Shown here one piece after another: positions 42,192-50,884 of a DNA stretch of 52,396 nt. This DNA is from Gemmatimonadota bacterium (GTDB lineage Bacteria > Latescibacterota > UBA2968 > UBA8231): NCBI GenBank assembly GCA_002724215.1, contig PBOD01000119.1, forward strand, positions 1-52,396. The letters run 5' to 3'. The stretch's first letter is position 1. Each line of letters starts with the position of its first letter. Under the pieces are notes generated by a model, which did no database searches, had not been told where the DNA came from, and worked only from the letters and a program-made list of their open reading frames with translations. Made by a program: the position numbers and the translations under genes.

Positions 42192-43436
42192 ATGCCCTAC
42201 CGGCTGCTCAAATTCGGGCTCGAGCGGGCGTATTCGGCGCCGCGGATGTTCCGCTCGCCTCCAACGCTCCGCGATAGCTACGACGTGGTGATTATCGGCG
42301 GCGGCGGCCACGGGCTGGCCGCCGCCCACTATTTGGCCCACGAGCACGGCATCCGCGACGTAGCGGTGCTGGAGCAGCGCTATATCGGCCACGGTGGCAC
42401 CGGCCGCAACACCGCGATCATCCGCTCGAATTATCTAACCGAAGAAGGGGCGCGTTTTTACGAGTTTAGCGTCGATCTTTACCGCGATCTCTCTCGTGCG
42501 CTCGACTTCAATCTGTTCTACTCCGAGCGCGGCCATTTCACTCTGGCCCACACTCCGGCGTCGCTGCGCACCCAGCGCTGGCGCGCCGAGGTCAATAAGC
42601 ATCTCGGCATCGATTCCGAGGTGGTAGATCCCGCGTTTATAAAAGAGACCATTCCCGAGATCGATCTGACCTGTGGCGGCCATCAGCCGCCCATTGTTGG
42701 CGCCCTCTATCATCCGCCGGGGGCGATCGCCCGCCACGATGCGGTGGCCTGGGCCTACGCGCGCGGTGCCGATCAGGGCGGCGTCGAGATCCACCAGCAG
42801 ACGTCGGTGACCGGGATCGAGATCGCCGACGGCAAGGTTGCGGGGGTACACACCGATCGCGGTTTTATAAAAACGCGCAAAGTGCTATCGGCGGTGGCGG
42901 GTTGGACCCCGCAGATTCAGCGCATGGTGGGGCTGCGCACGCCGCTGACGGTGCATCCGCTGCAGGCGCTGGTGACCGAGCCGTACAAGCCATGGCTCGA
43001 TGCAATCGTGGTGTCGGCGAGTTTGCACACTTATGTCAGCCAATCGTCGCGCGGCGAACTGGTGGCGGGCGCCAGTCTGGATCCCTACGAGTTGACTTCG
43101 ATGCGTTCGACGCTCGATTTTGCCGAGGGCTTGGCCGGCCATATGATGGATTTGTTTCCCTTTCTCGGGCATGTGAATGTGCTGCGGCAGTGGGCGGGGT
43201 TGTGCGATATGACGCCGGATTTTTCGCCGATTATGGGCACGACGCCCGTTGGGGGTTTTTATATTGACGCGGGGTGGGGGACGTGGGGGTTTAAGGCGTC
43301 GCCGGTTTGCGGTTATACTATGGCACACACCGTGGCGACGGGGGAGGATCACGAGTTGATCCGGGCTTTTAATCTTGCGCGGTTTGGGGGGTTTGAGTTG
43401 GTGGGGGAGAAGGGGGCGGCTTCGGTTGGGCACTGA
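42192..43436 (+). CDS. mgdA: N-methylglutamate dehydrogenase subunit A (sarcosine oxidase beta-like)
   Basis: A 414-residue FAD-dependent amine oxidoreductase of the DAO/SoxB family. The dinucleotide fold is DVVIIGGGGHGLAAAHYLA (36-45 for the glycine box). RNTAIIRSNYLTEEGARFYEFSVDLYRDL and LVTEPYKPWL follow, with the C-terminal FAD segment MTPDFSPIMGTTPVGGFYIDAGWGTWGFKASP. It probably holds the active site that oxidises the N-methyl group of N-methylglutamate. It starts three bases after gmaS. A 105-base gap with a large hairpin separates it from mgdB, unusual in an otherwise tight cluster. A heterotetrameric sarcosine oxidase is the main alternative identity. Confidence 0.87.
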   Translation: MPYRLLKFGLERAYSAPRMFRSPPTLRDSYDVVIIGGGGHGLAAAHYLAHEHGIRDVAVLEQRYIGHGGTGRNTAIIRSNYLTEEGARFYEFSVDLYRDLSRALDFNLFYSERGHFTLAHTPASLRTQRWRAEVNKHLGIDSEVVDPAFIKETIPEIDLTCGGHQPPIVGALYHPPGAIARHDAVAWAYARGADQGGVEIHQQTSVTGIEIADGKVAGVHTDRGFIKTRKVLSAVAGWTPQIQRMVGLRTPLTVHPLQALVTEPYKPWLDAIVVSASLHTYVSQSSRGELVAGASLDPYELTSMRSTLDFAEGLAGHMMDLFPFLGHVNVLRQWAGLCDMTPDFSPIMGTTPVGGFYIDAGWGTWGFKASPVCGYTMAHTVATGEDHELIRAFNLARFGGFELVGEKGAASVGH

Positions 43437-43450
43437 TGCTGCGTGCGTAC

Positions 43451-43500
43451 GGTCGAGTCGAGGGGGCACAACCGTTACAGTGTGCCCTCTCGACTCGACC
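43451..43500 (+). repeat. 20-bp-stem hairpin between mgdA and mgdB
   Basis: Two 20-base arms (43451-43470 and 43481-43500) are complementary over their whole length with a single G-U pair and enclose a 10-base loop. No T-tract follows on either strand, so it is not a standard terminator. In RNA it would be very stable and sits just before a gene with a TTG start. It may set the ratio of mgd subunits through RNA processing or stability, or be one copy of a dispersed palindromic repeat. Confidence 0.85.
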
Positions 43501-43541
43501 TCGGCGACTTCAGTGGAATGGGTTGATAAAAAGGGTGAATA

Positions 43542-43799
43542 TTGAAGGTTCTTACTTGTCCGATTAACGGCACGCGGCCGATACAGGAGTTTACCTACGG
43601 CGGCGAGGTGCGCGAGATGCCGGATCCGCAAGGGGCGGATGACGCGCAGTGGGCGGACTATGTCTTCAATCGCAGTGGCGAGCCGGGGGTGCAGCGGGAG
43701 TGGTGGTTCCACATCGCCAGCAATACCTGGTTTGTCGCCGAGCGCGACACGCTGACGGATGAGTTCGTGCGGACCTATTTGTGGGGGGAAGAAGCGTGA
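43542..43799 (+). CDS. mgdB: N-methylglutamate dehydrogenase subunit B (sarcosine oxidase delta-like)
   Basis: An 85-residue SoxD-family protein with CPINGTRPIQEFTYGGEVREMPDP, VQREWWFHIASNTWFVAERDT and a YLWGEE end. Sarcosine-oxidase delta binds zinc with a C-x-x-C pair and an H-x-x-x-C pair; here the second residue of each pair is Asn (N9, and N in HIASN), so the zinc site looks lost. The start is TTG at 43542, seven bases behind an AAAAAGGG run; no ATG or GTG fits better. It is the first gene after the intergenic hairpin and overlaps mgdC by four bases. Confidence 0.83.
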   Translation: MKVLTCPINGTRPIQEFTYGGEVREMPDPQGADDAQWADYVFNRSGEPGVQREWWFHIASNTWFVAERDTLTDEFVRTYLWGEEA

Positions 43800-50100: not shown

Positions 50101-50787
50101 ATAAACGCTAACGAACTGGTGTTCGATCTGGCGCCCGAGGCGGCCGCGTTGGGCCTGTGCGGGGCGTGCCTGGTATTCGAGGATTTGACCAACGCGCAGC
50201 GGGCCGAGGGTTTCGAGCGCTACAAGACGGATCTATGGGGCCGGTTGGCGGCGCGCTACGCGCCGGCCACGCTGGTGGAGAATCCGGTGCTGGCGGGTTT
50301 CCGCGACCTGCACGACAAAGTCGGGCGCTCCAACCGCAAGTTTCCCGCGTCGACCGAGCGGATGCTGGGGGTGTTCTTGAAATACGGGTCGCTTGCGCCG
50401 ATCAATCTGGCGGTGGATATCTACAATTGCGTGTCGCTGGAGACCTTGTTGTCGCTGGGGGCGCACGATATCGACAAACTGCGCGGCAATATCAGTTTGC
50501 GCCTCACCGATGGGAGCGAGCGTTTTACGCCTTTGGGGAAAGAAAGGGAGGAGCGCGTGCCGGCGGGCGAATACGCATATGTCGAAGAGGGTGGCGAGGT
50601 GTTGTGCCGGTTGGAATGTCGGCAGGCGGAGCGGACCAAGGTAATGATGGAGAGCCGACATTGCTTTTATATGATCCAGGGCAATGGCAATACCGAGGCA
50701 GAGTATATTATGGCGGCAGTGGACAAACTAGTGGAGTTGACGAAGAAGTACTGTGGTGGTGTGGAGCGGATGTTGTGGTCTGGCTAG
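50101..50787 (+). CDS. B3/B4 tRNA-binding domain protein (PheRS-beta-like editing domain)
   Basis: A protein of 222-228 residues related to the free-standing B3/B4 domain of phenylalanyl-tRNA synthetase beta. Typical segments are VGRSNRKFPASTERMLG, GSLAPINLAVDIYNCVSLETLLSLGAHDIDKL and a C-terminal MIQGNGNTEAEYIMAAVDKLVELTKKYCGG. Such proteins are thought to edit or bind tRNA, but roles are poorly known. The start is uncertain: the frame is closed upstream at 50086, and the only in-frame candidates are ATA (50101), CTG (50116) and GTG (50119). A good AAGGAG (50087-50092) is eight bases before the ATA and too far from the GTG. I therefore list the longer form but do not exclude GTG. Confidence 0.75.
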   Translation: MNANELVFDLAPEAAALGLCGACLVFEDLTNAQRAEGFERYKTDLWGRLAARYAPATLVENPVLAGFRDLHDKVGRSNRKFPASTERMLGVFLKYGSLAPINLAVDIYNCVSLETLLSLGAHDIDKLRGNISLRLTDGSERFTPLGKEREERVPAGEYAYVEEGGEVLCRLECRQAERTKVMMESRHCFYMIQGNGNTEAEYIMAAVDKLVELTKKYCGGVERMLWSG

Positions 50788-50884
50788 CGGTGGGCAGTCA
50801 TATCGAGGGCAGTCTCTAGGCTGATTCTCTCCTCGATCTGACCTCCGACCATTGGCGTGTCGCGCTGTAAAAAAGGATGTTAAG

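Follow-up and report, generated by a model that had tools for sequence, protein, structure and literature searches.

The hairpin between mgdA and mgdB is most probably (we estimate about 80%) a copy, with an internal deletion, of a structured MITE-like element that is dispersed through the genome. It lies in a window of 52,396 nucleotides, which is the whole stretch of DNA that we analyzed, from a metagenome-assembled genome (MAG) of the Latescibacterota (92.7% complete, with 5.25% contamination). The 20-bp stem includes one G-U pair and encloses a loop of 10 nt, and its left arm (GGTCGAGTCGAGGGGGCACA, 43451..43470, + strand) and right arm (TGTGCCCTCTCGACTCGACC, 43481..43500, + strand) are 95% complementary. 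It ranks first among the 14 inverted repeats found in these 52 kb; every other one is shorter or far less complementary. The predicted RNA fold of positions 43437-43542 has a free energy of -47.7 kcal/mol (z -4.5), and none of 200 dinucleotide shuffles folded as well.

The gene upstream of the hairpin, mgdA (42192..43436, + strand, with its TGA stop at 43434-43436), encodes a soxB-like FAD oxidoreductase (TIGR01373, E 1e-133). The downstream gene, mgdB (43542..43799, + strand), begins with TTG and encodes a SoxD-like protein (PF04267, E 9.9e-29). Both genes belong to a cluster of the N-methylglutamate type, in which glutamate-synthase-like genes and a type III glutamine synthetase precede the soxB-, soxD-, and soxA-like genes (TIGR01372 for the last). 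The gap between mgdA and mgdB is 105 bases, which makes it an outlier, as the junctions nearby are overlaps or gaps of 3-14 bases. All of this agrees with an earlier sequence-only reading of the window, which had named the mgd genes and had picked out both the near-perfect stem and the unusually wide gap.

That reading had also remarked on the missing T-tract. Although the stem is GC-rich, we found no T-run 3' of it, as an intrinsic terminator would have, and no terminator-like site at the hairpin. Given also the z-score of the fold and the alignment to a repeat family that is described below, the chance that this is an intrinsic terminator or a fortuitous palindrome seems negligible. Another suggestion was that the hairpin blocks or frees the TTG start of mgdB. 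The ribosome-binding region and start codon (AAAAAGGGTGAA, 43528..43544, + strand) are beyond the hairpin, with the ribosome-binding region (43526-43537) 25 bases outside the stem, and the predicted mean unpaired probability of this region is 0.62 with the hairpin and 0.67 without it. Nothing in these predictions supports control of the mgdB start codon by the hairpin.

The exact arms occur only once in the genome, but a weak match at C67:36548 (E 0.002) and still weaker ones share more than the stem. Using one full copy as the query, we found about 40 copies, and we then built a covariance model, R1, from 26 copies. In the 5.85-Mb MAG, R1 identifies 73 copies at E<=0.001, a census that rests on model searches. 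So, the search for further arm copies that had been proposed does return a single exact occurrence, but the objection that a single copy would argue against a repeat family fails, because the family has more than 70 members. In a full copy, which is about 145 nt long, an outer stem of 20-25 bp (P1) encloses two inner arms, named P2 and P3, together with conserved strands at the junction (CGCTCATTCTCG and CACGACCGCTACG). Besides these full three-way junctions, the family includes variants of about 110 nt without P3, variants of about 178 nt with an extra arm, and copies reduced to the stem, of which the window copy is one. Some pairs of copies (L227/L228 and L242/L243) are on contigs that are nearly identical over some stretches, which may mean that the MAG contains more than one strain.

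The structure of the element is conserved, and its sequence is not. Across 85 aligned matches, 90.9% of the pair cells are standard pairs, and 38 of 44 pairs vary on both sides. The covariation score is 0.444, as compared to 0.127 for shuffled alignments and 0.04-0.07 when the structure was slid along the alignment. This alignment was fitted to the model and includes a few duplicate or partial rows, so we also compared the P1 arms without a structural alignment. On average, 18.9 of 22 positions pair with the arm's own partner and 13.2 with the arms of other copies, and in 45 cases the own partner ranks first among 55. Thus, the sequence of P1 varies among copies while its complementarity is kept. 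Among the P1 mismatches in this genome, G.U outnumbers A.C by 44 to 29, which is a weak difference given that the scoring is biased towards G.T.

In the genome-wide search, R1 matches the window hairpin at C45:43446-43508 (27.7 bits, E 0.005), a span that includes the left arm. Because a 20-bp stem alone can score in a covariance model, we turned to tests that give no credit for pairing. A pairing-free weight matrix for the right end of the element, made from 75 copies, has its best match among 104,682 window positions at 43467-43522, which is the 3' half of the hairpin. The corresponding left-end matrix has its second-best match in the window at 43436-43472. Also, a global alignment of 43440-43518 to the full copy at C159:33214 scores 53.8, while the maximum for 40 shuffles is 20.6. 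This alignment runs from end to end with one internal gap, which corresponds to the removal of P2, P3, and the left junction strand. By the R1 match and the alignment, the window copy contains an outer stem P1 with the family's end sequences; its right arm is identified by complementarity to the left arm as well as by the C159 alignment.

Several parts of the family's sequence can be recognized around the stem. The flank that follows the mgdA stop (43437..43450, + strand) includes TGCGTGCGTACGG, which resembles the left ends of the family in both the left-end matrix and the C159 alignment. The right-end matrix and the same alignment identify a remnant of the right junction strand, CACAACCGTTAC (43467..43478, + strand; CACRACCGCTACG is the family form), which overlaps the end of the arm and the loop and is identical at 11 of 12 positions to the right junction strand of C67:36447 (CACAACCGCTAC). 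After the stem, the right tail TCGGCGACTTCAGTGG (43501..43516, + strand) matches the tails of other copies, including TCGACGACTTCTGCGA in the C159 copy; in the alignment, CCTCGGCGACTTC of the window tail matches CCTCGACGACTTC. Since P2, P3, and the left junction strand CGCTCATTCTCG are missing and only the right junction strand CACAACCGTTAC is retained, we classify the hairpin as a deleted derivative and not as an intact member.

The position of the deletion suggests how it might have arisen. On its left side, the lost part borders on GGGGCACA, at the left arm end, and in copies such as C67:36447 these same letters come before ACCGCT. With GGGGCACA at both borders, the inner ~95 nt were probably lost by slippage between these direct repeats, at the left arm end and the right junction, so that only P1, the right tail, and some of the right junction strand would have remained. 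The element in the window also has TGAT on both sides, which could be chance.

The best left-end matrix match in the window, at 50781-50817, led us to a second decayed copy at 50791..50851 (+ strand; R1 17.3 bits, E 0.018). Its alignment score is 30.8, as compared to a shuffled maximum of 25.0, and it keeps the left junction strand (GCTGATTCTC, at 50820-50829). This copy begins 3 nt past the TAG stop (50785-50787) of a gene with a B3/4 domain and is ahead of a PhyH-like gene.

To learn if the hairpin is conserved at this site, we compared the same gap in related genomes, as had been recommended, and found that the hairpin is missing between mgdA and mgdB in seven congeners. Four of these (G001, G004, G006, and G007) have a clean gap of 14-18 nt; G006 lacks the hairpin despite having 98 copies elsewhere, and its absence there could be due to loss instead of non-insertion. 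The other three have unrelated palindromic sequence at the junction: G008 (L067) and G002 (L088) contain an A/T-rich palindrome, AATTACGAATTACG, and G010 (L069) contains GTAGGGGGCGGTTTCAAACCGCCCCCTAC and more. The mgdA-mgdB junction thus repeatedly accepts unrelated palindromes, and the hairpin in the window is lineage-specific. This fits the earlier proposal that a mobile palindromic repeat had inserted into the operon.

The family as a whole is patchy as well. Of ten congeners, G005 has 74 copies by R1, G006 has 98, and the other eight have none. Elsewhere in the phylum, the elements are restricted to the same family as the window's genus. At another site, C5:30719, there is no element in five congeners that lack the repeat family: they have a short gap there, or unrelated extra sequence in the case of G001 and G008. 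The elements at this site in the window's own genome (G000), G005, and G006 (L226, L289, and L290) differ widely in sequence and in the number of arms. Such shared sites may represent old insertions whose pairing positions covary as they evolve quickly, or else repeated insertion. We saw no clear target duplication at C5:30719.

These comparisons bear on whether the hairpin is a dedicated regulator of the mgd genes, such as a stabilizer of the mRNA or a site of pausing or processing that lets mgdA and mgdBCD be expressed at different levels. The stem is very stable and is at an operon junction, and REP hairpins can slow mRNA decay. The hairpins of MITEs (miniature elements of the kind discussed below) can be processed by RNase III (PMC2229807). 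However, seven congeners have a short gap or other repeats at this junction, the hairpin carries family sequence that is found beside many unrelated genes, and the ribosome-binding region of mgdB is free, so we consider a dedicated role improbable. If a deleted mobile element has any effect on the mgd mRNA, by acting as a barrier to 3' decay or as an RNase III site, it would be a side effect; protection of the mgdA mRNA and pausing of the polymerase, both of which had been raised for this hairpin, are possible side effects of this type.

To describe where the copies are found, we used a simple codon-based gene caller to orient the genes around them. Tandem genes face the element equally in both orientations (15 vs. 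15), so there is no strand preference; 19 copies are between divergent genes and 5 are between convergent genes. Where the gene on the left runs towards the element, its stop codon is mostly 1-13 nt before the element. These stops are TAG in 16 of 22 cases, as compared to 37 of 95 elsewhere (p 0.008). The mgdA stop is 9 nt ahead of the start of the R1 match, which is a typical distance, but the codon is TGA. Also, the 16 nt to the left of the copies in this genome are enriched in CTAG/TAG, which may be part of the target or part of the element. Beyond common gene families, no neighboring gene was recurrent, and no mobile-element ORF recurred near the copies in other phyla.

The family has many intergenic, palindromic copies, which close relatives lack and which show no orientation bias, and in this it behaves like a family of mobile elements. 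The conserved unpaired junction strands suggest that the folded strand is recognized. Most likely, mgdA and mgdB were once separated by a short gap, and the element inserted there once this lineage had diverged from its congeners. Its position directly after the mgdA stop is the usual one for copies whose upstream gene runs in the same direction. The copies would most likely be moved in trans by a putative enzyme that reads the folded single strand.

The element is not limited to the Latescibacterota. We searched GTDB genomes for the core pattern (CGCTCATTCTCG, then 8-38 bases, then CTCCGAGG, with exact matches required) and found at least 115 matching stretches. Most of these are from Nitrospirota, and others are from Desulfobacterota, Latescibacterota, and Parcubacteria. 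A few of the matches (L141 and L149, for example) appear fortuitous. R1, which was trained on the window's own genome alone, recovers whole elements in other phyla: there are 60 and 51 copies in two Nitrospirota MAGs, 25 in Desulfospira joergensenii, 23 in Desulfurivibrio AMeS2, 4 in a Desulfobulbaceae MAG, and 5 and 6 in two Patescibacteria (0.5-0.7 Mb). Among the P1 mismatches from other phyla (L096-L175), A.C outnumbers G.T by 74 to 36 on the CGCTCATT strand, which corresponds to G.U on the opposite strand. This excess hints at which strand folds, or a single conserved mismatch position may explain it.

The main rival explanation holds that the family is a structured RNA with a function in protein binding or catalysis, possibly from the strand opposite CGCTCATT, and that selection maintains it in many copies, the window copy being a dead one. 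Covariation in every helix, junction nucleotides that are conserved across phyla, and the excess of A.C over G.T mismatches would all fit such an RNA, although one conserved position may account for the mismatches. On the other hand, the orientation of tandem genes is unbiased, there is no shared family of neighboring genes and no match in Rfam, and the copy number jumps from 0 in eight congeners to 73-98 in three genomes. We think that a functional RNA is unlikely, and that a mobile element is the better account of the family.

We then asked if the element is already known. Rfam 15 has nothing relevant in the window, and full copies from four phyla have no match at E<=1; the scans gave two unrelated weak matches elsewhere in the loci of the copies. 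The LOOT RNA motif (RF03000), a structured RNA of 121 positions reported from Latescibacteria, OD1, OP11, and TM7, comes from phyla that overlap those of the element, but in 12 genomes, among them ten with the element, its covariance model finds nothing above the cut-off. We considered attC sites because the copies follow stop codons. Judging by architecture and context, we set attC aside: the long stem of the element encloses its conserved part, the neighboring genes are unrelated, and no cassette array is seen. The family has no match in plasmid, phage, or IMG/VR records. In the literature that we searched, the exact core string appears only in one unrelated paper on human cancer, and we found nothing on repeats from Latescibacterota or Nitrospirota.

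The closest described elements are bacterial MITEs such as ERIC, Correia/NEMIS, and RUP, which are also short, mostly non-coding, and present in many intergenic copies with terminal inverted repeats. MITEs are 100-200 bp and their termini pair into a long stem (PMC2229807). Unlike MITEs, the element has a three- or four-way junction with conserved inner strands, and its outer stem varies between copies. It also differs in that we saw no TA termini and no clear target duplication, in that no parent IS was apparent, and in that it is present in at least four phyla.

REP/REPIN sequences with their RAYT transposases are similar in being numerous extragenic palindromes that are unevenly distributed among relatives. 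REP stems are 5-13 bp and carry a GTAG or CGTC tag (PMC3733652), while the stems of the element are 20-25 bp and enclose two inner arms, with no such tag. No Y1 transposase (PF01797) was detected in the window's own genome, a MAG that is 92.7% complete, which led us to reject RAYT/IS200 as the mover. A dispersed extragenic palindrome at gene ends could be a REP, and the CGTC families seem to lack a dedicated transposase (PMC3733652), but with these differences it is very unlikely that the family is a REP of the GTAG or CGTC super-families that is moved by a RAYT transposase. We also searched for reverse transcriptases across the genus: none was detected in the window's own genome (G000), G005, or G006, and they were found only in congeners without the element, so we rejected these as the mover too.

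The element works like a MITE, but its architecture is unlike that of described MITEs and REPs, and the copies that we tested have no match in Rfam 15. It may already be known under another name. We tentatively suggest, at somewhat less than even odds, that these elements are an uncatalogued mobile class in Latescibacterota, Nitrospirota, Desulfobacterota, and Patescibacteria. What marks such a class for recognition would be a folded junction of several arms, with single strands that are conserved, instead of a fixed terminal sequence. Its members would be placed next to stop codons and would be copied by machinery unlike Y1 transposases or reverse transcriptases. One odd hairpin thus provides a handle on a structured repeat that is absent from Rfam although genomes from several little-known phyla each carry tens of copies. 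Because the element is present in Desulfospira joergensenii DSM 10085 and Desulfurivibrio sp. AMeS2, cultures should allow tests of how it is transcribed, how it folds, and whether it moves. The reduction of a full junction element to a plain hairpin, of the kind described here, is also a possible origin for "orphan" hairpins in operons.

Finally, one record that contains the element, JABHFS01 (L162), is titled Gemmatimonadetes bacterium SI037_bin186. Its element coordinates and scores are the same as those of G006, from the window's genus, so this title appears to be misassigned.
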